Below, in pieces: positions 22,960-53,919 of a DNA stretch of 64,000 nucleotides (position 1 is the first letter of the stretch; each line of letters opens with the position of its first letter). Under the pieces are notes generated by a model. That model saw only the letters and a program-made list of their open reading frames with translations, was not told the origin of the DNA and ran no database searches. A program made the position numbers and the translations under genes. Source of the stretch: Alphaproteobacteria bacterium (GTDB lineage: Bacteria > Pseudomonadota > Alphaproteobacteria > Geminicoccales > Geminicoccaceae); the NCBI GenBank assembly GCA_027045875.1, contig JALUAG010000018.1, positions 1 to 64,000 on the forward strand. Direction: 5' to 3'.

Positions 22960-23427
22960 TCAGGACGGTCCGGCGGGATCGGAGGTGCGCTCCGACTCGC
23001 CGATTTTCTTCGCCGCCAGGTGCACGATCCGCTTGGTCTCCTCCCATAGCGGCAGGGCCACGATCTCCCCGGGCGTGAACCAGGCGAGCGCCGCCGCATC
23101 GCTGGCCGCCTCGCCCGTCCCGCCCACGGCCCGGCCGGTCACCTCGACCAGCGTGTAATGGTAGCGCACGCGTCCTTCGGCGTCGCGCTCCACCAGATCC
23201 ACCACATCGACGATCCGCGGATCGACCAGGGCGAGGCCGGTCTCCTCCCGCACCTCGCGCACCGCCGCCTCGAGGACCGTCTCGCCGAGCTTCTGGGCGC
23301 CTCCGGGAAGCGACCACTGTCCCTGCCGCGGCGGTTTGCCGCGGCGCACGAGCGCGACGCGCCCCTGGCGCCAGAGCACGATTCCGACTCCCACCACGGG
23401 CCGGTCGGGATAGCGGCGCTCACCCAT
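22960..23427 (-). CDS. NUDIX hydrolase
   Basis: A 155-residue NUDIX enzyme. The NUDIX box GGAQKLGETVLEAAVREVRE followed by ETGL matches G-x5-E-x7-R-E-U-x-E-E-x-G-U exactly, so metal binding is intact. PVVGVGIVLWRQGRVALVRR and QGQWSLPGG fit the subgroup similar to ADP-ribose pyrophosphatases or MutT-like proteins; the substrate is unknown. I use ATG 23425-23427 (MGERRYPDRP), as an earlier start adds a glycine-rich stretch without similarity. It converges with the HTH gene, with 25 bases between stops. Confidence 0.88.
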   Translation of the reverse strand: MGERRYPDRPVVGVGIVLWRQGRVALVRRGKPPRQGQWSLPGGAQKLGETVLEAAVREVREETGLALVDPRIVDVVDLVERDAEGRVRYHYTLVEVTGRAVGGTGEAASDAAALAWFTPGEIVALPLWEETKRIVHLAAKKIGESERTSDPAGPS

Positions 23428-23614
23428 GGCACCGGTCCCGCCCAGCGCAACCGTCCGTCCCGCGCTCTCCGGCACGGGTCCGGTCCGCCGTTCCTCGCCT
23501 CATCGTCGTGACCCTCTTGACGATATTTCAACCATAGGTTACCCTACCTTTCGCGTTGGTACGCGGAAATTGAATCGGCGGCCAACGTGTCAGACTGATG
23601 AGATGGGACCCTGG

Positions 23615-23682: not shown

Positions 23683-24588
23683 TCAGGGCGTGGCCGGACG
23701 CACACCGGCCGCCTCCATCTCCCGCCGCACCGCCGCCAGCTCCTCCGGCGAGGGCGCCGCCAGCAGAAACCGGATGTCGATGCGCCGGTTGAGCCGCCGC
23801 GCATCCGTCGTGTGCGACCAGGAAACCGGCCGCCGGTCGGCGTAGCTGCTGACCCCCAGCAGCGCCTCGCCGCGGCCGTTGCGGAAACGGTCGAGCAGCG
23901 GCTCGTACTCGACGAGCGTCTTGAAGGTGTTGACTCCGCGGGCCGCGCCCAGCTCCCAGTTGTCGCGATAGGGACCGGCGTGGATGGGCAGATCGTCGGT
24001 GTGTCCCTCGATCAGCACCGATTCGAGCACCGGCCGGGAGCCGGCCGGACAGCTCGCTTCCGTACCCGCCGGCGCCAGGGCGTAGCAGGGCAACACCCGG
24101 GCGAGGACCGCCGCCAGCTCCCGCAGCGCCCGCCGGCCCTCGGCCGTGAACTCCGCCCGGCCGGAGGGGAACAGCAGTTCCTCGGGCAGGCGCAGGATGC
24201 CCTTTTCCGGTTCCAGCGCCATCCGCACGTCGCGGGCCGCCAGCATGCCCGCCACCCTCTGCAGCATCTCGGCACGGACCACCTGCCGCTCGGCGAAACG
24301 TGCCACCAGCTCCTGCAGGGCGTTCTGCTGGGCCAGCAGCTCGTCCCGCTCGGCCGCCAGCCGCTCCCGCTGGGCGCGGATCCGGTCGCGTTCGGCGGCC
24401 ACCTCCGCGAGCTCGGCCTCGAGATCGCGCTTGACGGTCTTCGCTTCCTGTTCGGCCGAACGGAAGTTGAGGGCGAAGGCCATCAGCATGATGATGAAGA
24501 CGAACAACAGCCCCACCAGGAGATCGCTTACCGAGGCGAGATAGCTGTCCTCGCCCGGCTCCCGGGACCAGGATCGCTGGCCGATCAC
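23683..24588 (-). CDS. zorB: ZorB-like MotB/OmpA-domain stator protein
   Basis: A 301-residue protein with one N-terminal membrane helix (SVSDLLVGLLFVFIIMLMAF). Asp22 in this helix is in the position of the proton-carrying Asp of MotB and ZorB. A long charged coiled coil (about 43-105) follows. The C-terminal OmpA-like peptidoglycan-binding domain carries VLIEGHTDDLPIH, NWELGAARGVNTFKTLV and NRRIDIRFLL. The ATG overlaps the stop of the ZorA-like gene, so the two are translationally coupled. It resembles the B subunit of Zorya anti-phage systems more than flagellar MotB. No ZorC, ZorD or ZorE lies beside it. Confidence 0.8.
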   Translation of the reverse strand: MIGQRSWSREPGEDSYLASVSDLLVGLLFVFIIMLMAFALNFRSAEQEAKTVKRDLEAELAEVAAERDRIRAQRERLAAERDELLAQQNALQELVARFAERQVVRAEMLQRVAGMLAARDVRMALEPEKGILRLPEELLFPSGRAEFTAEGRRALRELAAVLARVLPCYALAPAGTEASCPAGSRPVLESVLIEGHTDDLPIHAGPYRDNWELGAARGVNTFKTLVEYEPLLDRFRNGRGEALLGVSSYADRRPVSWSHTTDARRLNRRIDIRFLLAAPSPEELAAVRREMEAAGVRPATP

Positions 24589-26024
24589 CGCTCCTCTCCG
24601 GGTGCACCCTCCAGGCCCTCGGCGAGGCCGGCCAGCGCCTGGCGCGACCGCCTGAGCCCGTCGTCCAGCTCGCTCAGGGTCTGGCGCAGTGCCGGAGGCA
24701 CGGCGGTACCTTCTTCCCCGCCGGTGCGGTCGAGATATTCCGCGAGCGCGCCGAGGCTGTGACGGGCGTCGCGGATCCGTTCGTGGAGCTCGCCGACGAT
24801 GGTGCGCAGCTCGCGGCGACGCAGGGCGAGTTCGCGGTCGCCGAGCCTGCCGGTCGCCCGCTCGACCGCCGCCGCCAGCCGGTCGAGCCGCAGCCGCAGC
24901 ATTCTGAGACCGCCTCCGATGCCGTCGACGGGACCGCCCGCCGGCCGCGGCGGCGAGACCTCGGACGGTGCCGCCTCGCGGTGCGGCGCGGCGTGGTCCC
25001 GTTCCTCGAGCAGGCTGCGGATCGCCCGCAGTTCGGCCAGCAGCGGCTGCCAGGGATCACGGTGCTGGACGCTGGCCACCGGGTCGAGCCCGCCGCGTGG
25101 GCGTGCGCGGCCACCGCCCTCGCCACTCCCTGCGAGCTCGCGGCGAGCGGCTCCCAGAACGCCCTCGCCGTCCGCCAGCCGGTCGGCGAGGCGTCGCACC
25201 GAATCGCGGAGCGGCGCGAAGGCCGCCGCCAGCTCCTCGCCCAGCCTCGCCTCCACGTTCTCCGGCAGATGCACCAGCATGCCGCGCCCGAGACGGCCCA
25301 GTTCCTGGCGCTGTTGGCGCAGCTCGTCGAGCTGGACCGCCGCCAGCCCGGCAGTGGTGATCGGCACGGTACGCGCCTCGAGGGCGTGGCAGAAGCGCGC
25401 GAGGCGCCCGTAGAAACGGTGCAGATGGGCCTTTTCCCGCCAGGAGAACAGCAGCGAGCTGCCGAGGCCGGCGATGGAGGTGGCGAACTTGAAGGTGGCG
25501 GCGCCGAGCAGGTCCCGCAATGCCGCCTGGGCCGTGCGCACGTCTTCCGCCGCCACCCCGCCACTCGCGAAATAGAGCGCTCCGACGAGGCCGATGAAGG
25601 TGAAGAACAGGCCGAGCCCGACGAGAAGGTTGGGAAAGGCGTTGTAGAAGCGGAGGTCGAGCCCGCTCAGGGCCAGGAGCCCGTCGTTGAAATGCTCGTG
25701 AGGCCGCCGCACGTAGCCGATCGCCTCCTCGGCCCCCGGCGCCGGCCGCAGGGTCGCGGCGTAGGCGCGCCAGGCCTCCCCGAGCACGGGGTTCTCGGCG
25801 AGGGCCTTGAAGATGGAGGTGAAGCGCTGGCGGAAGGCGGCGGGCCCCTCGGTCTCCTCGACGACGGCGATGGCCCGGTCGAGGGCCCGCAGCACCGGCC
25901 GCAGGCCGGCCCGGAAGCGCTGCCAGACGAGCAGCGCCACGAGCACGATCACCGCCGACAGCGCCCAGGGCAGAACGGGGCTCGCCAGCAGGGCGAAGAG
26001 GGCGGTCATCGGCGCTGGGTCCAT
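24585..26024 (-). CDS. zorA: ZorA-like MotA/ExbB proton-channel protein with long cytoplasmic tail
   Basis: A 479-residue inner-membrane protein. TM1 is PWALSAVIVLVALLVWQRF, TM2 is NLLVGLGLFFTFIGLVGALY and TM3 is ATFKFATSIAGLGSSLLFSW, the MotA/TolQ/ExbB core layout. The loop HEHFNDGLLALSGLDLRFYN between TM1 and TM2 is typical of ZorA. The last 270 residues are charged and mostly helical, forming the long tail that in Zorya signals to effectors. I use ATG 26022-26024, with GAGG eight bases upstream; an ATG at 26030 is possible. The tail is shorter than in described type I ZorA, as I remember it. Confidence 0.8.
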   Translation of the reverse strand: MDPAPMTALFALLASPVLPWALSAVIVLVALLVWQRFRAGLRPVLRALDRAIAVVEETEGPAAFRQRFTSIFKALAENPVLGEAWRAYAATLRPAPGAEEAIGYVRRPHEHFNDGLLALSGLDLRFYNAFPNLLVGLGLFFTFIGLVGALYFASGGVAAEDVRTAQAALRDLLGAATFKFATSIAGLGSSLLFSWREKAHLHRFYGRLARFCHALEARTVPITTAGLAAVQLDELRQQRQELGRLGRGMLVHLPENVEARLGEELAAAFAPLRDSVRRLADRLADGEGVLGAARRELAGSGEGGGRARPRGGLDPVASVQHRDPWQPLLAELRAIRSLLEERDHAAPHREAAPSEVSPPRPAGGPVDGIGGGLRMLRLRLDRLAAAVERATGRLGDRELALRRRELRTIVGELHERIRDARHSLGALAEYLDRTGGEEGTAVPPALRQTLSELDDGLRRSRQALAGLAEGLEGAPGEER

Positions 26025-26069
26025 CGGCATGCCCTCGGACGCGCGGTACCGCGGGATGCGTCACCGCTC

Positions 26070-26099
26070 TTGCTTCGCTGGAGCCGGCACGGATATAAT
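26070..26099 (+). promoter_or_regulatory. Candidate promoter upstream of the RpfG-like/EAL gene
   Basis: A perfect TATAAT (26094-26099) with TTGCTT (26070-26075) at 18-base spacing. Transcription would leave a leader of about 190 bases before ATG 26297. A second possible pair lies closer, TTGCAC (26187-26192) and TATCCT (26211-26216), also 18 bases apart. Either could drive the two-gene signalling operon. Confidence 0.45.
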
Positions 26100-26296
26100 G
26101 CCAAGTCATTCGACCAACCAGAGCGGAGGCCCGGGCACGATCGGCGCCTATCTCTCGAGCGTTGCATATGAAGGCCGCTGTTCACCTTGCACTTGCCTCC
26201 GCTTTGCGCCTATCCTAAGGATGCCGTAGAGCGCAGCAGTTCCTCGGCACCGGATCTGTTCTCGGCGGGAGATCCCGAAGCGCGGTGCGGGAAACC

Positions 26297-28435
26297 ATGT
26301 CGCATATAGTGGTCATCGACGACCGTGTGACCAACCGGAACATTCTTACGCGGCTCGCCCAGTCCGTCGAGGAAGGTCTTCAGGTGCGCGCCTTCGGCAA
26401 TGCCCGCGAGGCCCTCGAGGCGATGCGCGCCGGTCCGCCGCCGGATCTTATCATCACCGACTACAACATGCCCGAGATGGACGGCGCGACCTTCATCACC
26501 CTGGTACGCTCCGATCCCCGTTTCGAGGACGTTCCCATCATCGTCGTCACCGTCTACGAGGACCGCGATTTCTGCTACCGGGCACTCGAGGCCGGCGCCA
26601 CCGACTTCCTGCTGAGCCCGGTCGATCACGTGGAGTTCCGGGCCCGGGCCCGCAACCTGCTGACCCTCAGACGCCAGCAGAAGCTGCTCGCCGCCCGGGC
26701 CGAGCGGCTCGAACAGGCGCTGCGCGAGCATCAGGTACCGTTCGCCGGCACCGACCCGAGCCTCGGAGAGATCCTCGACGCCCTGCCGGCGGGGATCAGC
26801 GTGACCGACCGGCAGGGCCGTCTCGTCTACGTCAACGAGGCCTACGCCCGCCTCTTCGACAGCAGCCGCGAGGAACTGTGCGGTCGGCTGATGGCGGAGG
26901 TCCACGACGAGGACTATGCCACCCGGCACGGCGTCCTCAACGAGAAGGTGCTGGAGGCACGGCGGCCGCTGAGCGTGCCGCGGCCGGAAACCCTGGAGGC
27001 GGCCACCGGGCCGCGCAATCTGCTCAGCGTCAAGGCGCCGCTGCTGAGCGAGACCCTGGCGGCGCCCCGGGTAGTGTCGCTGTGCCTCGATGTGACCGCG
27101 CTCGAGAATGCCCGTCAGGCGGGCAGCGCGCAGGTGCACGATCCGCTCACCGGACTGCCGGGTCCCGAGCTGCTGCGCGAGCGTCTCGCCGAGGAACTCG
27201 GCCGCGCCCGCCGTCACGGTCTCAAGCTCGCCGTGCTGCTGCTCGACCTCGACCGCTTCAAGGGGATCAACGACGCCTTCGGCGAGGCCTTCGGCGACGA
27301 GCTGCTGGCCAAGATCGCCGAGCGGTTGAGTCAGCGGCTGCGCGAGACCGACCATATCGGCCGCTGGCGCAGCGACGAGTTCGTGATCCTGCAGAGCGGC
27401 GTGCGGCGCAACGACGACGCCGCCGAACTCTGCCACCGGCTGAACGAGGCCTTCGCCGAACCCTTCCACAACGCCGGCAAGGAGCTCCATCTGAGCGCGA
27501 GCATCGGCATCACCATCTTCCCCAACGACGCCAAGACGCCGGAGGGGCTGCTCAAGAACGCCGATCTCGCCATGTACCGGGCCAAGAAGGCGGGCCGGGA
27601 CACCTATCGCTTCTTCTCCGCCGAGATGAACGCCGCCGCCCGGCGCGCGGTGGCCCTCGAGCGCGAGCTGCGCCAGGCCCTGGCCGCCGAACAGTTCATG
27701 GTCTACTACCAGCCGCAGCTCGACCTCCGCACCGGCGGCATCGTCGGCATGGAGGCGCTCATTCGCTGGAACCATCCCCGACGGGGCATCGTCCGGCCGG
27801 GCGAGTTCATCGGCCTCGCCGAGGAGATCGGGCTGATGGCGCCGCTCACCGCCTGGGTGCTGCGGACCGCCTGTGCCCAACATCGTGCCTGGCTCGACCA
27901 GGGCTTCGAGGGCCGCCAGCTGTCGGTCAACTTCTCGCCCGTCCAGTTCCGCGAGCGGGGGGTCGAGCTGCTGATCGAGCGGGTGCTGGAACAGACCGGT
28001 CTCGAACCCGACCGCCTCGACGTCGAGCTCACCGAGAACGCGGTGCTCGGCAACGACAAGGCGGCCCAGGCCTGTCTCCGTTACCTCCAGCGTCTCGGCG
28101 TGCGTCTTTCCATCGACGATTTCGGCACCGGCTACTCCTCCCTCTCCTACCTGCGACGCCTGCCCGTCCACCGCCTCAAGATCGACCAGTCCTTCATCCG
28201 CAATCTCGACCGGGACAAGAACGACGAGGTGATCATCCGGGCCATCATCGGCCTCGGCCACAGCCTCGGGCTGCGGGTGATCGCCGAAGGGGTGGAGACC
28301 GAGGACCAGCTCCGCCGGCTGGTCGAGCTCGGCTGCGACGAGGCCCAGGGCGACCTGATCAGCCCGCCGCTCAGCGCCGCCCAGTTCGAGACCCAGGCGG
28401 TGCGCGCGCCGCTGCGTCTGGTCAGCTGCGGCTGA
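26297..28435 (+). CDS. RpfG-like receiver fused to PAS-GGDEF-EAL (c-di-GMP phosphodiesterase)
   Basis: A 712-residue response regulator. Residues 1-125 form a receiver with phospho-acceptor Asp55 (LIITDYNMPEMDG); the usual Lys is Ser107 in FLLSPVD. The receiver, including its ending RARARNLLTLRRQQ, resembles that of Xanthomonas RpfG as I recall it. A PAS domain (about 160-275) follows. The GGDEF domain (about 276-445) has RSDEF at 358-362, so cyclase activity is probably lost. The EAL domain keeps EALIRW (486-491), ELTEN, DDFGTGYSSL, KIDQSF and EGVET, so it should hydrolyse c-di-GMP. The next gene, an RpfC-like kinase, starts four bases after the stop. In classical DSF loci this partner has an HD-GYP output instead. 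ATG 26297 is used; a GTG lies four codons upstream. Confidence 0.9.
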   Translation: MSHIVVIDDRVTNRNILTRLAQSVEEGLQVRAFGNAREALEAMRAGPPPDLIITDYNMPEMDGATFITLVRSDPRFEDVPIIVVTVYEDRDFCYRALEAGATDFLLSPVDHVEFRARARNLLTLRRQQKLLAARAERLEQALREHQVPFAGTDPSLGEILDALPAGISVTDRQGRLVYVNEAYARLFDSSREELCGRLMAEVHDEDYATRHGVLNEKVLEARRPLSVPRPETLEAATGPRNLLSVKAPLLSETLAAPRVVSLCLDVTALENARQAGSAQVHDPLTGLPGPELLRERLAEELGRARRHGLKLAVLLLDLDRFKGINDAFGEAFGDELLAKIAERLSQRLRETDHIGRWRSDEFVILQSGVRRNDDAAELCHRLNEAFAEPFHNAGKELHLSASIGITIFPNDAKTPEGLLKNADLAMYRAKKAGRDTYRFFSAEMNAAARRAVALERELRQALAAEQFMVYYQPQLDLRTGGIVGMEALIRWNHPRRGIVRPGEFIGLAEEIGLMAPLTAWVLRTACAQHRAWLDQGFEGRQLSVNFSPVQFRERGVELLIERVLEQTGLEPDRLDVELTENAVLGNDKAAQACLRYLQRLGVRLSIDDFGTGYSSLSYLRRLPVHRLKIDQSFIRNLDRDKNDEVIIRAIIGLGHSLGLRVIAEGVETEDQLRRLVELGCDEAQGDLISPPLSAAQFETQAVRAPLRLVSCG

Positions 28436-28439
28436 CGTC

Positions 28440-31061
28440 ATGACCGGCCGCGACGGTGGCGCCACGCCCTCCCGCGAGCCCCGGCAAACGACGTCGCCAC
28501 CCCGGTCGCCGCCGTGGCGCGGCCTTCTGGGCCGCCTGCGGGCGCGTCTCGCCGGACGCGAGGACAGCGAACACGAGCAGGCGCTCATTCGTTTCGGCGT
28601 CATCGCCGGCATGTACGCCTACATGCTGCTGGCCCCCTTCCCGGAGGAGGACCGCGCGCGGGTCTTCTTCTGGAGCAGCGTGCTGTTCGCCGGAGGGACT
28701 CTCTCCGCGCTGCTGCTGTTCCTCGACATCCTGCGCCGGCCGCGGCCCTCGCCGGCCCGACGGGTGGCCGGGATCCTCGTCGATACCACCGGCGTCAACG
28801 CCGCCATGCTCATCGGCGGCCATCTCGCCACCCCCTTCTATCCCCTTCTGCTGTGGCTGATCTTCGGCCACGGCTTCCGCTACGGCCGCGCCTATCTGTT
28901 CACCGCCGCCGGCCTGTCGCTGGTGATGTTCGGCGGGGTGGTGGTTCTGAGCCGCGACTGGCGCGCCTACCCGGTGCTCGACGCCTCGCTGATCCTGGCC
29001 CTCGTCGTGCTCCCGGCCTACGTCTCGGTGCTCCAGCAGCGGCTCGCCGACGCCCTCGCCCGCGCCCGCGAGGCGAACGAGGCGAAGAGCCGTTTCCTCG
29101 CCACCATGAGCCACGAATTCCGCACCCCGCTCAACGCCATCATCGGCATGAGCGAGCTCCTGCGCACCACCCGGCTCGACCACGAACAGGAGGAGATGGC
29201 CGCCACCATCCGCAGCGCCGCCCACAGTCTCCTCGGTCTGGTGAACGCGGTGCTCGATCTCTCGCGGCTCGAATCCCGCGGGCTCGAGGTGGTACCGGTG
29301 ACCTTCGACCTCGACCGCCGGCTCGCCACCCTGCGGGCGATGCTGCTGCCGGCCGCGACCGAGAAGGGGCTCTATCTGCGGCTCGAGCTCGATCCCGCGA
29401 CCCCCGTCCACCTGCGCGGTGGCGAGCAGCCCCTGCACCAGGTGCTGGTCAATCTGGTGGCCAATGCCATCCGCTTCACCGAGCGCGGCGGGGTGGTGGT
29501 GGCGGTGCGGCCGAGCGCCGTCGAGGAGGGAACGGTGCGGCTGCGGTTCGAGGTGCGCGATACCGGCATCGGCATCGCGCCGGAGGCGCAGGAGCGGATC
29601 TTCGAACGTTTCGAACAGGCGGGTGACGGTACCGCGCACCGCTTCGGCGGTACCGGACTGGGGCTCAGCATCGCTCGCGAGCTGGTGGACCTGATGGGCG
29701 GCCGGATCGGTGTGGAAAGCCAACCCGGACGCGGATCGACCTTCTGGTGCGAGCTGCCCTTCACCGCGCTCCCCGAAGGGGACCTGGCGCTGCCCGCCCA
29801 GACCTTCGCCGTCTGCCTCGGGGACCCGCTCGAAGCGGTGGCCCTGTCCCAGCGGCTGTCGGCCTTCGGCGTCCGGACCCGGGCGGTGAGCGCTCTCGAG
29901 GAGGCGGTGGCCACCGTGGAACGGGTCACCTGTCGACGGGCCGTGCTGGTGACCGGAACACGTCCGCCGGTGGACCTCGCCCGCCTCGCCGACGCCCTGC
30001 TGCCGCTCTGCCGGGCCGAGCCCGTGGACATCGTCACCGTCGGCGTCGCCGGTGACGGCGACCACCCCTGCTGCCTCGCCCGCCTGCCCGCCGAGGTGGA
30101 GGATCGGGTGCTGCGCCGCGTCCTGCACGCCGCCTTCGCCCCCGCGGGCATCACCGACGGCCCGCAGACGGCGGCGCGGTCCATCCCCCGCGCGACGCGG
30201 CGGGCACGGGTGCTGGTGGCCGAGGACAACCGCACCAATCAGATCGTGATCGAGCGGGTCCTCGAACATGCCGGGCACGAGGTGGTGCTGGTCGCCGACG
30301 GGCACGAGGTGATCGAACGGCTCGAACGCGAGCGTTTCGACCTCGTGCTGCTGGACATCAACATGCCCGAGATGAGTGGCCCGGAGACCGTCAAGCTGCT
30401 GCGCTTCACCCACGCTCCGGCCGACCTGCCGCCGCTCGTGGCCCTGAGCGCGGACGCCACCGCCGAGACCCGCCGGCGCTGCCTCGAGCTGGGCTTCACC
30501 GACTATCTGACGAAACCCCTCGATGCCGCGGCCCTGATCGAGACCATCGATCAGCTGATCACGGCACGCGACCACGGGCGTCCGGCGGCGGCGCGCAGGC
30601 TGTGCCGGCCGGCGGCGGAACGGCCGGCGGCGGCCGAGAGTGCGGTGGTCGTGCCCCATCCCGCGACCCGTCGTCCGCGCCATTCGAGCGTGCTCGACGA
30701 GCGCAAGCTCGCGGCGCTCGCCGAACTCGACCGGGGCGACGGATTCCTGGCCGGTCTGGTGCGGGAATTCCTGGCCGACGCGGAGAACCTGATCGACCAG
30801 CTGGCAACGGCCGCCGATGCCGGAGACAGCCGCACCTTCCGCGATGTCGCCCATGCGCTGCGCAGCAGTGCCGCGCACATCGGCGCCCAGGCCCTCTTCG
30901 ACCACTGCATGTCCTGGCGCAAGCTGGACGACCACGCGCTCGTCATGCGCGGCCCGCAGGAGGTGGCCAGGGCGCGACAGGAACTCGAGCGGGTGCGCGA
31001 GGCCCTGCGGCGCTACCAGGCGGGTGGCCGCGGCGCCGGGCTGCGGGCACCGGGCAACTGA
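28440..31061 (+). CDS. rpfC: RpfC-type hybrid sensor histidine kinase (DSF receptor homologue)
   Basis: An 873-residue membrane kinase. The N-terminus AGREDSEHEQALIRF and the following five or six membrane helices (about 48-205, including the motif FGHGFRYG) match the DSF-sensing input region of RpfC. The order after that is HisKA with His225 in TMSHEFRTPLNAIIGM, HATPase_c (VNLVANAIRF, DTGIGI, GGTGLGLSIA), receiver with Asp639 (LVLLDINMPEMSG), and HPt with His805 in DVAHALRSSAAHIGA. All phosphorelay residues are present. It is co-transcribed with the RpfG-like/EAL gene and converges with the rpfF homologue, so all parts of a DSF circuit lie together. Confidence 0.93.
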   Translation: MTGRDGGATPSREPRQTTSPPRSPPWRGLLGRLRARLAGREDSEHEQALIRFGVIAGMYAYMLLAPFPEEDRARVFFWSSVLFAGGTLSALLLFLDILRRPRPSPARRVAGILVDTTGVNAAMLIGGHLATPFYPLLLWLIFGHGFRYGRAYLFTAAGLSLVMFGGVVVLSRDWRAYPVLDASLILALVVLPAYVSVLQQRLADALARAREANEAKSRFLATMSHEFRTPLNAIIGMSELLRTTRLDHEQEEMAATIRSAAHSLLGLVNAVLDLSRLESRGLEVVPVTFDLDRRLATLRAMLLPAATEKGLYLRLELDPATPVHLRGGEQPLHQVLVNLVANAIRFTERGGVVVAVRPSAVEEGTVRLRFEVRDTGIGIAPEAQERIFERFEQAGDGTAHRFGGTGLGLSIARELVDLMGGRIGVESQPGRGSTFWCELPFTALPEGDLALPAQTFAVCLGDPLEAVALSQRLSAFGVRTRAVSALEEAVATVERVTCRRAVLVTGTRPPVDLARLADALLPLCRAEPVDIVTVGVAGDGDHPCCLARLPAEVEDRVLRRVLHAAFAPAGITDGPQTAARSIPRATRRARVLVAEDNRTNQIVIERVLEHAGHEVVLVADGHEVIERLERERFDLVLLDINMPEMSGPETVKLLRFTHAPADLPPLVALSADATAETRRRCLELGFTDYLTKPLDAAALIETIDQLITARDHGRPAAARRLCRPAAERPAAAESAVVVPHPATRRPRHSSVLDERKLAALAELDRGDGFLAGLVREFLADAENLIDQLATAADAGDSRTFRDVAHALRSSAAHIGAQALFDHCMSWRKLDDHALVMRGPQEVARARQELERVREALRRYQAGGRGAGLRAPGN

Positions 31062-31107
31062 AGCCGGACAGCCGTCACGGACGGGGCGCCGGCTGCGGGA
31101 CCCGGCC

Positions 31108-32064
31108 TCACGCCGCGGCCCGGCGCCGCTGCTGGTGACGGGCGAGGCAGTCCATCCGCCGCAGGTCCTGTTCCTCGAGCGTCAGCGCCAGATCCACCCA
31201 CAGCTCGACGATGTCGACGAGCTCGGACTTGGTCACCGGCTCCACCCGGTTGCGCATCCGCCGCAGCGCGAGTTCGGTCCGGAAACGCCGCGGGTTGGCC
31301 CGGACATGCTCGCGCAGGCGGTCGCGGCCCTCGCCCTTCTCGCAGACGATGTCGACGAGACCGAGCTGGTGCAGCTCGTCGGCGCTGCGCGTGCGACCGT
31401 CCTCGATCAGACGCCGCGCCTCCACCTCGCCCACACGGCGACGCAGGAAGCTGTAGGCGCCCATGCCGGGGAACAGGTTGAACAGGATCTCCGGCAGACC
31501 GAACTTGGCACCCCGTTCGGCGACCACGAAATCGTTGGTCAGCATGGCCTCGAAGCCGCCGCCGACGGCATCCCCCTCGATCACCGCCGCGGTGATGATG
31601 GGCAGCTCGAGGCCGCAGTAGTTGTCGTGGAGGACGTCGATGGAGAGATGGGCGTAGGCCCTGAGCCCTTCCCGGTCCTGGGCGCGGATGAGGGCCGTGA
31701 ACACGGAGAGATCGCCACCCAGGCTCCAGGCCCCCTTGGCCCGCGAGACCCAGGCGAGATAGCGGAACGGCATCTCTTCGGGGCTGGCGCCCTGATAGAG
31801 GCGCTTCAGATAGAGCTGGAACTCGCGACCGTCCCGCATCAGCGGGCGGGTGAAGCAGGCCCGCTCGAGATGGTGCATTTCGGCCCAGAGGATGCCGGTT
31901 TTCTCTTCGAGCGTGGCGGTCAGGTTCTCGAAGGCGATGTCGGGCCGGCCCCGCTCGCGCTTGAACGGAAGGATCGCCGCCGAAGCCGCCGCGGCCGCCG
32001 GCCGCGCGAGCTCCTGCTCCACCTTTCCCAGAAGCGCCCGAAGATCCCGCCGTGATACCGCCAT
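31108..32064 (-). CDS. rpfF: DSF-family autoinducer synthase RpfF (crotonase fold)
   Basis: A 318-residue crotonase-superfamily enzyme. RpfF proteins convert 3-hydroxyacyl-ACP to cis-2-unsaturated fatty acid signals by dehydration and thioester hydrolysis. The two catalytic glutamates are Glu172 (GDAVGGGFEAML) and Glu192 (FGLPEILFNLFPGMGAYSF), 20 residues apart as in Xanthomonas RpfF (Glu141/Glu161). The oxyanion region WSLGGDLSVF is present. The phrase LFNLFPGMGAYSFL separates RpfF from ordinary enoyl-CoA hydratases. The ATG (32062-32064) has AAAGGAGAG six bases upstream. About 30 extra N-terminal residues make it slightly longer than the Xanthomonas enzyme. Confidence 0.94.
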   Translation of the reverse strand: MAVSRRDLRALLGKVEQELARPAAAAASAAILPFKRERGRPDIAFENLTATLEEKTGILWAEMHHLERACFTRPLMRDGREFQLYLKRLYQGASPEEMPFRYLAWVSRAKGAWSLGGDLSVFTALIRAQDREGLRAYAHLSIDVLHDNYCGLELPIITAAVIEGDAVGGGFEAMLTNDFVVAERGAKFGLPEILFNLFPGMGAYSFLRRRVGEVEARRLIEDGRTRSADELHQLGLVDIVCEKGEGRDRLREHVRANPRRFRTELALRRMRNRVEPVTKSELVDIVELWVDLALTLEEQDLRRMDCLARHQQRRRAAA

Positions 32065-32154
32065 GACCGCTCTCCTTTGGTTAGTGCGCCGCCGTCTGGT
32101 GGACCCGCCGAGGGCGACGACCGGTGTCCCTCTCGATGCTCTACAGAAGAAAGG

Positions 32155-32170
32155 TTAACGTTACTTTAAC
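32155..32170 (-). promoter_or_regulatory. CtrA binding site in the rpfF promoter region
   Basis: TTAA (32155-32158), seven bases, TTAAC (32166-32170) is a full CtrA consensus site, about 95 bases upstream of the rpfF start. The surrounding 120 bases are much more AT-rich than the rest of the window, as expected of a regulated promoter. Confidence 0.65.
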
Positions 32171-32213
32171 GGTGACGCAATACGGTAAATGATTAAAGAA
32201 GAGTTACTTTAAC
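32160..32213 (-). repeat. Two copies of GTTACTTTAAC, 43 bp apart, upstream of rpfF
   Basis: GTTACTTTAAC occurs at 32160-32170 and again at 32203-32213. Each copy is itself a dyad (GTTA-N3-TAAC when read on the other strand). The 43-bp distance is about four helical turns, so bound dimers would face the same side of the DNA. The first copy overlaps the CtrA site. These look like operators for a dimeric regulator of rpfF. Confidence 0.55.
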
Positions 32214-32286
32214 ATACAAGACGACGACAATTGCAGCGTCATTTGGATAAAAATTTCCGGAAACGCGCGTGGTTCGGCGACGGCCG

Positions 32287-32638
32287 TCAGGGCGCCGCTG
32301 CCTCCGGCCAGCCGGCGAACCGCAGGCCGTCGAAGGCGGCCACGCCCAGCAGAAACGCCGCCCCCCGGCAAGAAGCAGTTCCGGGAGCGGGCCGGGCGGC
32401 GCTTGCGGGAGCCTGCCGACGAAGCGTCCGCGGGTCGCGAGGACGCGGAGGCCGGCGGCCTTCAGCAGCGTGCCCGTGGCCACGAACCCCGCCGCCGCCC
32501 GGGAGAGTCCCGACGTGCCGGGGCCGCCGTAACCGAGGCGTTCCCCCCCGGACCGAAACCCATCACGGTGACGGCGGTGCGGATCCAGGCGAGACAGGTC
32601 CGTCCCTCGGCCGCATGGTCGGGGAAGCGCTCGATCAC
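32287..32638 (-). pseudogene. DUF202 (YidH-like) membrane protein gene broken by two frameshifts
   Basis: Three pieces in three frames read in order as one DUF202 protein. The first, from GTG 32636-32638, contains AAEGRTCLAWIRTAVTVMGF, the family signature (ERTFLAWIRT). It shifts at a run of seven C (32543-32549). The second contains AAAGFVATGTLLKAAGLRVL and shifts at a run of six C (32361-32366). The third reads AAFLLGVAAFDGLRFAGW and ends at TGA 32287-32289. Adding one base to each homopolymer restores a single frame of about 117 residues, the normal size of the family. This is either a recent pseudogene or two under-called homopolymers in the assembly. Confidence 0.65.
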
Positions 32639-32722
32639 CTTCCCGCTCCGACCCTCCGGCCGCTTCCCACATTGCTCACGCCGCTTCCTTCCCGCTTTCC
32701 CCCGGTGGCGGCCGCTACCTCC

Positions 32723-33427
32723 TCAGCCCCAGGGGCCGGGACGTCGCGGCGGCGGTCCGCGGGAGATTCCGCCTCTCACCAGACCGGCCACCACCACACC
32801 GAAGACGAAACCGCCGATGTGGGCCCACCAGGCGACGCCGGCGGCGGTGGCCGGCGTCATCAGGGCGCTCAGAATCTGGAAGAAGAACCAGAAGCCGAGG
32901 AGCCAGCCCGCCGGCAGCGTGTAGATGAACATGAATCCCACCGGGATGAGCACCAGCACGCGGGCGCGCGGAAAGAACACGAGATAGGCGCCGAGCACCC
33001 CCGAGATGGCGCCGCTAGCCCCCACCATCGGCGTCTCCGCGGCGGGATCGGGAAGGATCTGCACCGCCGCCGCGGCGAGCCCCGAAGCGAGGTAGAACAC
33101 GAGGAAGGCGAAGTGGCCGAGGCGGTCCTCCACGTTGTTGCCGAAGATCCAGAGGTACAGCATGTTGCCGATCAGGTGCATCCAGCCGCCGTGCAGGAAC
33201 ATGGAGGTGAAGAGGGTGGCCCAGGGAGCGACCATCTCGAGGCCGGCGGCCAGTCGCGCCTGTCCGGTGAGCACCGCGGGGATCATGCCCAGCCCGTAGA
33301 CCGAGCGCTGGAAGCCGTGGGCGCCGCCCGAGATCTGCCAGAGGAACACGATCACGCAGAGGACGAGGATGGTGACGGTGACGATCGGCCGGCGCCGGGT
33401 CGGATTGTAGTCCTTGAGCGGGATCAT
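32723..33427 (-). CDS. Rhomboid family intramembrane serine protease
   Basis: A 234-residue protein with six or seven membrane helices. The catalytic serine is in VGASGAISGVLGAYLVFFPR and the catalytic histidine in WWAHIGGFVFGVVVAGLV. HGGWMHLIGNMLYLWIFGNN is the conserved second-helix region containing the His/Asn oxyanion residues. Rhomboids cut substrates within the membrane; the substrate is unknown. The start MIPLKDYNPTRRRP is the usual form for this bacterial subgroup. It is divergent from the molybdenum hydroxylase gene. Confidence 0.95.
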   Translation of the reverse strand: MIPLKDYNPTRRRPIVTVTILVLCVIVFLWQISGGAHGFQRSVYGLGMIPAVLTGQARLAAGLEMVAPWATLFTSMFLHGGWMHLIGNMLYLWIFGNNVEDRLGHFAFLVFYLASGLAAAAVQILPDPAAETPMVGASGAISGVLGAYLVFFPRARVLVLIPVGFMFIYTLPAGWLLGFWFFFQILSALMTPATAAGVAWWAHIGGFVFGVVVAGLVRGGISRGPPPRRPGPWG

Positions 33428-37060: not shown

Positions 37061-38593
37061 TCACTCGCCGCCCCGCGCCCGCCGCTCGCGCACGGCGATC
37101 CAGTCCCGCACGCGGTACTTGAGCACCTTGCCCATGGCGTTCCTGGGCAGCTCGTCCATGAAGACGACGGCGCGCGGATGCTTGAAGCGCGCGAGCCGCC
37201 CCTCGAACAGCGCCAGCACCTCCTCCTCGGTGAGACCGGGATCGCCGCGCACCACCACCGCCACCGGCACCTCGCCCCAGCGCGCGTCCGGGCGCCCCAC
37301 CACCACCGCGTCGCGGATACCCCGATGCTCGTGCAAGACCGCCTCGAGCTCCGCCGGATAGATGTTCTCGCCGCCCGATATGACCACGTCCTTCTTGCGG
37401 TCGACGATCCAGAGATCTCCCTCCGCGTCCAGATAGCCGATATCGCCGGTGTGAAGCCACCCCTCGACGAGCGCCTCGCGGGTCGCCGCCTCGTCGCCCC
37501 AGTATTCGAACATCACGTTCGGACCGCGCACCAGCACCTCGCCCGGCTCGCCGGGCGGCACCTCGCGTCCCTGCCGATCAATGAGGCGCAGTTCGGCGTG
37601 CAGCGCCACCTTGCCGGTGGCCCCGGGCTTGGCGAGGGCGTCTCCGGCCCGCTGATAGACGGCGATCGGACAGGTCTCGGTGGAACCGTAGACCTGGGCC
37701 GCCGGCACGCCGCGGTCGTTGAAGGCGTCGAGCAGCGGGCGCGGCACCACCTGCGAGCCACAGGCGATCATCCGCAGGCAGGAGAGGTCCGTGGCCTCCC
37801 ACTGCGGATGCTCGATCAGCGCCCGCATGGTGGCCGGTACCAGCACCGTGAGGGTGGGCCGCAGGCGGGCGATGGCCTCGAGGGTGCGTCCGGCGTCGAA
37901 CCGGTCGAGCAGCGTCACCTCGGCGCCGGCGTGCAGGGCCGGCGTGGTCTGGATGTTGAGCCCGCCCACATGGAACAGCGGCAGCACGGTGAGCACGTGA
38001 TCGCGGCTCGTCAGATCGTGCATGTGGGCGGCGTTGAGGGCGTTCCAGAAAAGCGCCTCCTGACGCAGCACGGCGCCCTTGGGCCGCCCCGTGGTGCCCG
38101 AGGTGTAGACCACGAGAAGCGGGTTCCCGAGATCGACGTGCGGGTTTCCGGCATCTCCGCCCGTACCCAGAAGCTCGTCGAGGGCGACCATCCCCGGCCG
38201 CTCCCCGTCCACCGCCACCAGCCGCACGCCGGCGACCACCTCCGCGAGGCGTTGCGCCTCGGCCGCGAACGCGGCGGTGGCGAGGACCGTCTCGACGCCG
38301 GCGTTGCGCAGGATGTAGGCGTTCTCGGCGGTGGCGAGACGCCAGTTCAGGGGCACCATCATCACCCCGAGGCGGGCGCAGGCGAAGAGAAGGGTCAGGA
38401 AGTCCGGATGATTGTAGCCGAGGAAGGCGACCCGATCGCCGCGGCCGACCCCGAGGCCGTGCTTGAGCCCCCGGGCCATGGCCCGGATCCGCTCGGCGAA
38501 CTCGGCGTAGGTCAGCGTCCGCTGCTCGGATCGGATCGCCGTTCGCGCCGGGTCGAAGGCGGCGTGGCGTTCGATCCAGAGACTGAGATCCAT
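37061..38593 (-). CDS. Acyl-CoA synthetase (AMP-forming), FadD-like
   Basis: A 510-residue ANL-superfamily ligase that activates a carboxylic acid to acyl-AMP and then acyl-CoA. The P-loop VYTSGTTGRPKG, PLFHVGGLNIQTT, YGSTETC, HTGDIGYLD and RKKDVVISGGENIYPAELEA are all intact. The C-terminal catalytic Lys is in ELPRNAMGKVLKYRVR. Sequence does not settle chain length; similarity is to medium/long-chain or fatty-acid ligases. I use ATG 38591-38593 because an earlier start adds only Gly/Arg residues. It is divergent from the flavin oxidoreductase operon, 164 bases apart. Confidence 0.9.
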   Translation of the reverse strand: MDLSLWIERHAAFDPARTAIRSEQRTLTYAEFAERIRAMARGLKHGLGVGRGDRVAFLGYNHPDFLTLLFACARLGVMMVPLNWRLATAENAYILRNAGVETVLATAAFAAEAQRLAEVVAGVRLVAVDGERPGMVALDELLGTGGDAGNPHVDLGNPLLVVYTSGTTGRPKGAVLRQEALFWNALNAAHMHDLTSRDHVLTVLPLFHVGGLNIQTTPALHAGAEVTLLDRFDAGRTLEAIARLRPTLTVLVPATMRALIEHPQWEATDLSCLRMIACGSQVVPRPLLDAFNDRGVPAAQVYGSTETCPIAVYQRAGDALAKPGATGKVALHAELRLIDRQGREVPPGEPGEVLVRGPNVMFEYWGDEAATREALVEGWLHTGDIGYLDAEGDLWIVDRKKDVVISGGENIYPAELEAVLHEHRGIRDAVVVGRPDARWGEVPVAVVVRGDPGLTEEEVLALFEGRLARFKHPRAVVFMDELPRNAMGKVLKYRVRDWIAVRERRARGGE

Positions 38594-38757
38594 CGGTGCC
38601 CGTTCCCTCCCCGCCCCATGGCTGCCGCGCCCGCGTCCCCCCGTCAAGCGCGAGGGCGGGCGGCGGTCGCCCGCCGGCCATTGCCCGGCGGCGAGCGGGG
38701 TTGTAACAGGGATCCACCTCCGGAGTCATTCGGCCCGGACGGGAGGAAGCGCGCCAG

Positions 38758-52786: not shown

Positions 52787-52998
52787 CCGCATCGTCACCG
52801 TGCAGGGAAACCGTCGAGCCGGGGGCGACGCGGATCCGGGGCCGACCGGGCGTCCCCGATCGTGCGGTCCCCGAGGACCGCGATCCGCATCGGGAATTCC
52901 ACGCTCCGGGCCCGTTCAGCCTTTCTTAAGCTTTCGCGACTAGCGTCGTCGGAAAGCCGGCCCGGGACCTCCCACAGCTCCATAATCGGCGGATACCG
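52787..52998. other. Gap before the degenerate GGDEF response-regulator gene
   Basis: No gene is seen. GCGGTCC-CCGA-GGACCGC (52864-52881) is a perfect seven-bp hairpin that could end the cytochrome operon, though no T tract follows. The AT-richer patch TTTCTTAAGCTTTCG (52921-52935) may be part of the promoter of the next gene. Confidence 0.4.
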
Positions 52999-53919
52999 AT
53001 GCTCGATACCTATTCGATCCTGCTGGTCGAGGACATGGCATCCGACGCGGCCCTCGTCGAAATCTGCCTGCGGGAATGCGGCGCCGAGCGGATCGCGATC
53101 GCCGGAACCCTGCGCGAAGCCTTCGCGCGCATCGACGGCGACCCGCCCGACGTGGTGCTGCTGGACCTGAACCTGCCCGATTCCCACGGGCTGCGCACCG
53201 TCGAGACCATGGTACGGCTGCACCCCGAACTGCCGATCGTCGTGCTCACCGGCTTCGGTGCCGACGACATGGTGATCGCCGCCGAGGCGGTCCGCGGCGG
53301 CGCCCAGGATTTCATCACCAAGGACAATGTGGAGCCCACGGCACTGCAGCGCGCCATCATGTTCGCCATCGAGCGCAAACAGCAGGAACGCCGCCGGCTC
53401 CACCATCTGGATCACGACGAGCTCACGGGTCTGCCACGGCCGCATGTGCTCGCACGGCTGTTCGCCACTTCGGCCAGCCGCTGCGCCCGTTCCGGCAGGA
53501 GCCTGGCGCTCGCCAGCCTCGGCATCCGCGCCTTCGGGCAGCTGCGCGACGAGCGGGGCGCCGAATGGGCCGATGCCCTGATCGCGGCGGTGGCGGCGCG
53601 GCTGCGCAAGAAGATCCGCCGCCACGATGCCCTCGCTCGGCAGGAGGACGCCCGCTTCCTTGCGCTCCTCGACAATCTGCCCGATCCCGGACATGCGGAG
53701 ACCGCGGCCCGCCGCCTGCTGGCGGTCACCGCCGAACCCTTCTCCTTCCAGGACAGCTTCTGCGAGGTACAGGTCTGCATCGGGCTCAGCCGCTGGGACG
53801 CGAGCCTGCCCCGTCCGTTCGAGGAACTCCGCGAGGCGGCCGACCGTGCACTGGAGCAGGCGCTGCGGCGAGGGGTGGCCGTCCATCTCGAGAACGGCGA
53901 GATGCTGGCCACCTCGTGA
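52999..53919 (+). CDS. Response regulator with degenerate GGDEF domain
   Basis: A 306-residue protein. The receiver (1-125) carries VVLLDLNLPDSHG with the phospho-acceptor Asp and DFITKDN with the Lys. A GGDEF-like domain follows, beginning HDELTGLPRPHVLARLF, but the signature GGDEF is replaced by RQEDARF. It cannot be a diguanylate cyclase, and the inhibitory RxxD site is also absent. It may sense c-di-GMP or GTP or act as a docking protein. It converges with rlmE, with seven bases between the stops. Confidence 0.82.
   Translation: MLDTYSILLVEDMASDAALVEICLRECGAERIAIAGTLREAFARIDGDPPDVVLLDLNLPDSHGLRTVETMVRLHPELPIVVLTGFGADDMVIAAEAVRGGAQDFITKDNVEPTALQRAIMFAIERKQQERRRLHHLDHDELTGLPRPHVLARLFATSASRCARSGRSLALASLGIRAFGQLRDERGAEWADALIAAVAARLRKKIRRHDALARQEDARFLALLDNLPDPGHAETAARRLLAVTAEPFSFQDSFCEVQVCIGLSRWDASLPRPFEELREAADRALEQALRRGVAVHLENGEMLATS

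Follow-up and report, generated by a model that had tools for sequence, protein, structure and literature searches.

The window, that is, the whole stretch of 64,000 nucleotides that was analysed, comes from contig JALUAG010000018.1 of a member of the Geminicoccaceae. Three adjacent genes of the DSF (rpf) type, DSF being a fatty-acid quorum signal of Xanthomonas, are found in it: a gene encoding a receiver with a PAS-GGDEF-EAL output (gene 1, here called the output gene), the hybrid histidine kinase gene rpfC, which starts 4 nt past the end of the output gene, and the crotonase gene rpfF (Table 1). A sequence-only reading of this DNA had claimed a three-gene DSF locus at 26297-32213. All three open reading frames are present and each residue named in that reading was found, so the gene trio is real, but the right end was placed too far, as the first ATG of rpfF is at 32064. 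A scan of 25900-32800 for promoters and terminators gave nothing above chance.

Table 1. Features of the rpf locus and of its surroundings in the window (coordinates in the window; aa, amino acids)
Feature	Position	Strand	Details
NUDIX hydrolase	22960-23475	-	matched in 17/40 Geminicoccaceae loci
ZorA-like/ZorB-like (MotA/MotB-type) pair	23683-26030	-	divergent from the EAL gene
REC-PAS-GGDEF-EAL gene (gene 1)	26297-28435	+	712 aa; ATG at 26297, stop ends 28435
RpfG-type receiver (REC)	26297-26662	+	Pfam REC, residues 4-117
PAS_4-type PAS	26774-27103	+	Pfam PAS_4, residues 160-269
GGDEF (degenerate motif) and EAL	27113-28432	+	Pfam GGDEF 280-435, EAL 456-691
rpfC, DSF-sensor-type hybrid histidine kinase	28440-31061	+	873 aa; HisKA, HATPase_c, REC, Hpt (Pfam)
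rpfF, DSF-synthase-type crotonase	31108-32064	-	318 aa; convergent with rpfC
Rhomboid protease	32723-33427	-	matched in 10/40 Geminicoccaceae loci
Acyl-CoA ligase (AMP-binding)	37064-38725	-	5 kb beyond rpfF
REC-GGDEF gene, second c-di-GMP gene in the window	52930-53916	+	329 aa open frame

The host's GTDB order is represented by 31 genomes in the set, all from one family, the Geminicoccaceae. Since NUDIX and rhomboid genes also lie near the trios of relatives, the gene neighbourhood is conserved beyond the trio. The Zor-like pair matches the models ZorB1 (1e-78) and ZorA1 (6e-43, with a short ZorA), and ZorA-like and ZorB-like matches were observed in 11 and nine of the 40 Geminicoccaceae loci, respectively, the window's locus counted. 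In Xanthomonas, RpfB is an acyl-CoA ligase. The acyl-CoA ligase of the window was considered for this role and set aside, with a match in only four of the 40 loci, the window's included; no tie to RpfB was found in the window or in these loci. In the host genome as a whole, ten EAL matches are present.

The synthase contains Glu172 and Glu192 exactly as claimed. This catalytic pair had been taken as the mark of an RpfF-type enzyme, but alone it proves nothing because three of four ordinary enoyl-CoA hydratases of the same genome also carry both residues, and it was dropped as proof. The identity of RpfF is based instead on its tree, in which the four host hydratases are separated from 109 RpfF-like rows (SH-aLRT 99), on its best NCBIfam match, PRK08788 (308.7 bits vs. 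a cut-off of 177), and on its top four PDB matches, which include RpfF structures and are well ahead of the rest. The protein also has in common with other RpfFs the stretch NLFPGMG. Against the strict RpfF equivalog, the protein scores 195 bits, far below the cut-off of 550. Judged by the tree, the window synthase is a true RpfF and does not group with ordinary hydratases.

In RpfC, residues 40-51 read REDSEHEQALIR, with the sensor motif REDSEHEQ at 40-47. Six hydrophobic peaks follow, two of which overlap, and five to six membrane helices are therefore counted. Together with H225, D639 and H805, which are exactly where they had been placed, these features bear out the description of an RpfC-type kinase. 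In Xanthomonas campestris RpfC, R15, D17, S18, E19 and Q22 are reported to be essential for DSF sensing (PMC5391125), and the window protein has R, D, S, E and Q at all five positions; the comparison covers these five residues, while the abstract of that paper counts six. Both sites corresponding to Ala16 and Ala21 of X. campestris are Glu in the window, and Asp at either position is reported to lower the response (PMC5391125). At the Xanthomonas-like loci L212 and L213, the motif is REDSEHAQ, which has the first Glu in common with the window but not the second.

After deduplication by kinase sequence, the sensor Gln is present in 26/26 EAL systems of the Geminicoccaceae, in 21/22 histidine kinase (HK) systems and in 9/15 HD-GYP systems, where the remaining one and six, respectively, did not match the motif pattern. 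Among 37 other EAL systems, the position is Met in 20, Leu in two and Gln in one, and 14 did not match the pattern, which allowed only Gln, Met and Leu at the last place; the 21 unmatched rows include, by eye, some with Ile or Thr. Thus, Met replaces Gln in 20 of the 23 motif-matched EAL systems outside the Geminicoccaceae (37 examined, L227-L340). The Met-bearing RpfCs belong to Rhizobiales-like and some Acetobacteraceae-like systems, the remainder of the motif is similar, and the replacement points to a possible shift of ligand.

The receiver of the output gene retains D8, D9, D55 and T85. Receivers usually carry a switch lysine at the position where this one has Ser107. It had been read as close to RpfG, and the tree agrees: a single clade (SH-aLRT 99) unites 117 receivers, those of HD-GYP RpfG-type proteins among them, and separates them from 33 outgroup rows, so that they do not group with unrelated regulators. 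The outgroup consists of 27 receivers of the host genome and six RpfC receivers, of which 29 are different sequences, as overlapping loci yielded some twice. In this tree, built by a quick method from 122 columns and with 69 of its 143 inner branches open, the HD-GYP RpfGs are basal and an alphaproteobacterial clade (98) contains both HK and EAL forms. The aspartates D8, D9 and D55 are conserved in all 56 rows of the alignment, and at least 90% of them have T85. The switch-lysine site is Ser in 63/65 EAL, 22/25 HK and 9/10 unclassed rows and Lys in 16/17 HD-GYP rows; a looser pattern gave Lys in 30/33 outgroup rows. Judging from these rows, the switch lysine of the DSF receiver is nearly always replaced by serine in Alphaproteobacteria, and without it switching by phosphorylation may be changed or absent.

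The output gene ends in PAS-GGDEF-EAL instead of HD-GYP, as had been read; Pfam confirms GGDEF and EAL, and no HD domain was found. The EAL motifs are present (EALIRW at 486, N545, DDFGTG at 607 and K628) and align with those of solved GGDEF-EAL proteins. The GGDEF motif reads RSDEF, which we take, from established knowledge of the GGDEF family, to mean no cyclase. This form is found in 17 of 27 Geminicoccaceae loci, the window included (one locus per genome with identical ones kept; 13 of 22 when deduplicated by identity), and GGDEF is kept in five of the 27. Outside the family, the motif is intact in 32 of 43 EAL proteins, and both cyclase and phosphodiesterase activities may exist there. 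In the window, the GGDEF looks inactive from its degenerate motif. The net effect is therefore probably to break down c-di-GMP, and a phosphodiesterase output seems the likeliest. The HD-GYP domain of RpfG also breaks down c-di-GMP.

Two DSF signalling types, those of RpfG and RpfR, had been proposed to be merged in this protein. RpfC-type sensing with an EAL output was upheld, but the RpfR part was not, as the protein resembles RpfR in domain order only. In RpfR, the BDSF-contact residues of the PAS are reported as S169, N172, Y183, R187 and N202 (PMC6361424); the window PAS has H, L, P, a gap and K at these sites, i.e., none of the five is kept. The N-terminal FI domain, which binds RpfF in RpfR, is missing, with the receiver at residues 4-117 in its place. 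Among the 48 rows of the GGDEF-EAL tree, five of RpfR type fall into a clade of their own (SH-aLRT 99), and the window protein lies outside it. In the same tree, 26 of the 27 trio rows and one non-trio row (L178) group together (SH-aLRT 92, not starred) among alphaproteobacterial GGDEF-EALs, with Telmatospirillum (L291) apart. By the contact residues, the missing FI domain and this tree, an RpfR origin of the PAS-GGDEF-EAL half was rejected. Two loci of family f71 were also seen to have such genes with no receiver found: in L230 (6012-8387), a PAS-GGDEF-EAL gene is convergent with rpfF, and in L181 (15180-17198), a GGDEF-EAL gene is some 6 kb from rpfF; both proteins fall outside the RpfR clade.

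The structures predicted for REC-PAS and for the PAS were confident (pLDDT 91.5 and 91.6). Compared with the PDB, they returned receivers and generic PAS folds that indicated no ligand; none of the PDB matches listed for these models was named RpfR, which carries no evidential weight. The PAS profile matched 58 PDB sequences, none of which was named RpfR. A PAS_4 domain is reported to bind DSF in Xanthomonas RpfS (PMC4504480), and the window PAS carries the Pfam label PAS_4, which denotes a broad family.

The trio was expected to recur in related genomes, and it is present both in Geminicoccaceae loci and in named genomes. In the host's order, rpfC follows the EAL gene in 27/27 EAL loci (a 28th genome, G006, is outside the count) and rpfF lies in the same stretch in 17/27. 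In genomes G010 and G009 (L066/L067 and L079/L080), rpfF was observed on another long contig, with the rpfC-EAL pair together. Among 385 genomes of the class, RpfF was found in 24, the REC-PAS gene in 26 and both in 22 (Fisher p 1e-29, a naive value that ignores relatedness); RpfF is without the receiver gene in 2/24 genomes and the receiver gene without RpfF in 4/26. Outside the Geminicoccaceae, the REC-PAS gene of 22 class genomes carries a histidine kinase in 20, HisKA_2 in one and GGDEF-EAL in one, the last with no rpfC near. The HK outputs were mostly assigned by BLAST; Pfam, run on three of the HK proteins, gave both HisKA and HATPase_c in two and only HisKA in the third (L168). At the REC-PAS-HK loci, rpfC follows and rpfF is convergent, as a rule.

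Named genomes were scanned with the receiver alignment. Of the best 80 loci, 51 have EAL, 12 HK, 11 HD-GYP and two HisKA_2 outputs and four are unclear or cut; because these are the best 80 loci of a scan centred on the window receiver, the shares are not frequencies in nature. Complete trios were found in 37/51 EAL, 7/12 HK, 8/11 HD-GYP, 2/2 HisKA_2 and 2/4 unclear or cut loci, and some of the incomplete ones stop at a contig edge. In 35 EAL trios of these 80 loci, rpfF is convergent right after rpfC. Carriers of the EAL form include many Rhizobiales families, Acetobacteraceae, Roseomonadaceae, Stappiaceae, a Sphingomonas and Inquilinus, among others, and complete trios are present in cultured genera that include Methylopila, Stappia, Microvirga, Pseudovibrio, Gluconacetobacter, Kaistia and Ancylobacter. 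In Gammaproteobacteria, HD-GYP is joined to the related receiver; in other alphaproteobacteria, the receiver and PAS are found on a histidine kinase. A record titled Mycobacterium (L319) has an rpf trio spaced as in Inquilinus limosus, and Rhizobiales-like copies are present in a MAG titled Burkholderiales (L283, L296); both are likely mislabelled or misbinned.

A joined tree of RpfF, RpfC and the receiver was built from 97 loci with all three genes, 46 of them EAL, by a quick run under a simple LG model with no mixture. In this tree, the hypothesis that all EAL loci form a single clade is rejected (AU p 1e-106) and Telmatospirillum (L291) sits with an HK system (100). One clade of the EAL loci without L291 is also rejected (p 4e-5), in part because the HK row L168 sits among EAL rows. 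From the pairing of L291 with HK and the rejection of one clade, GGDEF-EAL was acquired repeatedly, or else acquired and then lost. More than one output swap is thus a firm reading of these trees, and the number and direction of swaps are not firm. In disagreement with the joined tree, the GGDEF-EAL tree would be consistent with a single origin shared by Geminicoccaceae and Rhizobiales and another, independent one in L291.

Taken together, the trio architecture, the RpfC motif, the RpfG-clade receiver and the RpfF tree agree with kinase-type DSF sensing coupled to an EAL output, as the sequence-only reading had put forward. We consider it probable that this is a DSF-type quorum-sensing locus in which RpfC relays to the receiver and EAL is the output, one receiver-PAS front serving swapped outputs, and, in the same joint judgement, that it arose as an output-domain swap and not as a fusion of RpfG with RpfR. 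DSF would bind RpfC at the N-terminal REDSEHEQ, as suggested by residue identity with Xanthomonas; RpfC would autophosphorylate and relay from H225 to D639 to H805, all of which are present; the phosphorelay would pass to the RpfG-family receiver of the output protein; and its EAL would hydrolyze c-di-GMP. Several observations stand against this model, namely Ser for the switch Lys, the low RpfF equivalog score, Glu at the RpfC Ala16 and Ala21 sites, rpfF on another contig in G010 and G009 and the imperfect co-occurrence of RpfF and the receiver.

The serine that stands for lysine in almost every alphaproteobacterial receiver of the set is what favours a receiver that is no longer phospho-switched and instead docks RpfC or RpfF, with the EAL set by binding or by a PAS ligand. 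Docking by a REC domain has precedent in the DSF pathway, as the REC domain of Xanthomonas RpfC itself is described as holding RpfF (review PMC13220807). Yet, for a dead receiver, one would not expect D8, D9, D55 and T85 to be so conserved, and the relay residues of RpfC are present; this explanation is rather unlikely. A true RpfG/RpfR chimera, with the output half borrowed from RpfR and a PAS that, like that of Burkholderia and Cronobacter, binds the fatty-acid signal, giving two inputs, would account for the domain order and the nearby rpfF and could draw on the DSF-binding PAS_4 of RpfS; it is improbable given a receiver in the position of the FI domain, the absence of all contact residues, the PAS profile matches and a GGDEF-EAL that is nearer to those of its own genome than to the RpfR clade. 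Hardly credible is a housekeeping crotonase next to a two-component pair that senses something else: the low equivalog score and the shared Glu pair would fit it, but the RpfF tree, the NLFPGMG stretch, the DSF-type sensor motif of RpfC and the close co-occurrence of RpfF with the REC-PAS gene all speak against it.

The core DSF routes named in reviews of 2015 and May 2026 (including PMC13220807) are RpfC-RpfG and RpfR, plus accessory sensors, and the rpfF-rpfG-rpfC clusters mentioned outside xanthomonads in the review text consulted are from Methylophaga, Leptospirillum, Thiobacillus and Methylobacillus, with no alphaproteobacterium. No alphaproteobacterial RpfF-RpfC-EAL system is described among the open-licence literature matches listed, a scope that leaves subscription papers and preprints outside, nor in the portions consulted of PMC4504480, PMC8357829, PMC6361424, PMC5391125, PMC13220807, PMC4517397, PMC4698668, PMC9409198 and PMC10226988. 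The novelty is architectural and phylogenetic, and the arrangement is widespread, not a one-off. The locus points to a widespread alphaproteobacterial DSF route with another output and suggests that DSF sensing is modular, with one receiver and several outputs. Two questions become testable, i.e., talk through cis-2 fatty acids and switching by a receiver without the switch lysine. As a tentative proposal, Alphaproteobacteria might have a third core DSF class, in which RpfF/RpfC feeds a lysine-less receiver-PAS socket with HK or GGDEF-EAL plugged in, the PAS would be a second, intracellular input and the change from Gln to Met would reflect another fatty-acid ligand in Rhizobiales-like members.

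Compared with Xanthomonas RpfF/RpfC/RpfG, the window has an RpfF-clade synthase with both Glu (below the strict equivalog cut-off), an RpfC with a membrane input, the His, Asp and Hpt His of the phosphorelay and a near-identical sensor motif (R, D, S, E and Q, with the two flanking Ala replaced by Glu), and an RpfG-clade receiver; the regulator gene adjoins rpfC and rpfF is convergent in both. It differs in its PAS-GGDEF-EAL output, where RpfG has HD-GYP (Pfam finds GGDEF and EAL, no HD), and in the receiver Ser instead of Lys. Burkholderia/Cronobacter RpfF/RpfR has the same PAS-GGDEF-EAL order and a nearby rpfF, but RpfR has the FI domain instead of a receiver, BDSF contacts of which the window PAS has none, and a GGDEF-EAL of another clade, and the likely sensor in the window is the kinase. 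Xanthomonas RpfS, a PAS-histidine kinase, is DSF-linked as well and has a PAS that, like the window's, is of PAS_4 type, a likeness of label only. The nearest comparison for the output protein is the alphaproteobacterial REC-PAS-histidine kinase found here at the same kind of rpfF-rpfC locus, with the same receiver family, a PAS, rpfC and rpfF and, as a rule, the same gene order, and with HisKA-HATPase instead of GGDEF-EAL as output. Judged by its domains and trees, the locus would work like RpfFCG with EAL in place of HD-GYP, and its output protein is neither a strict RpfG nor an RpfR member.
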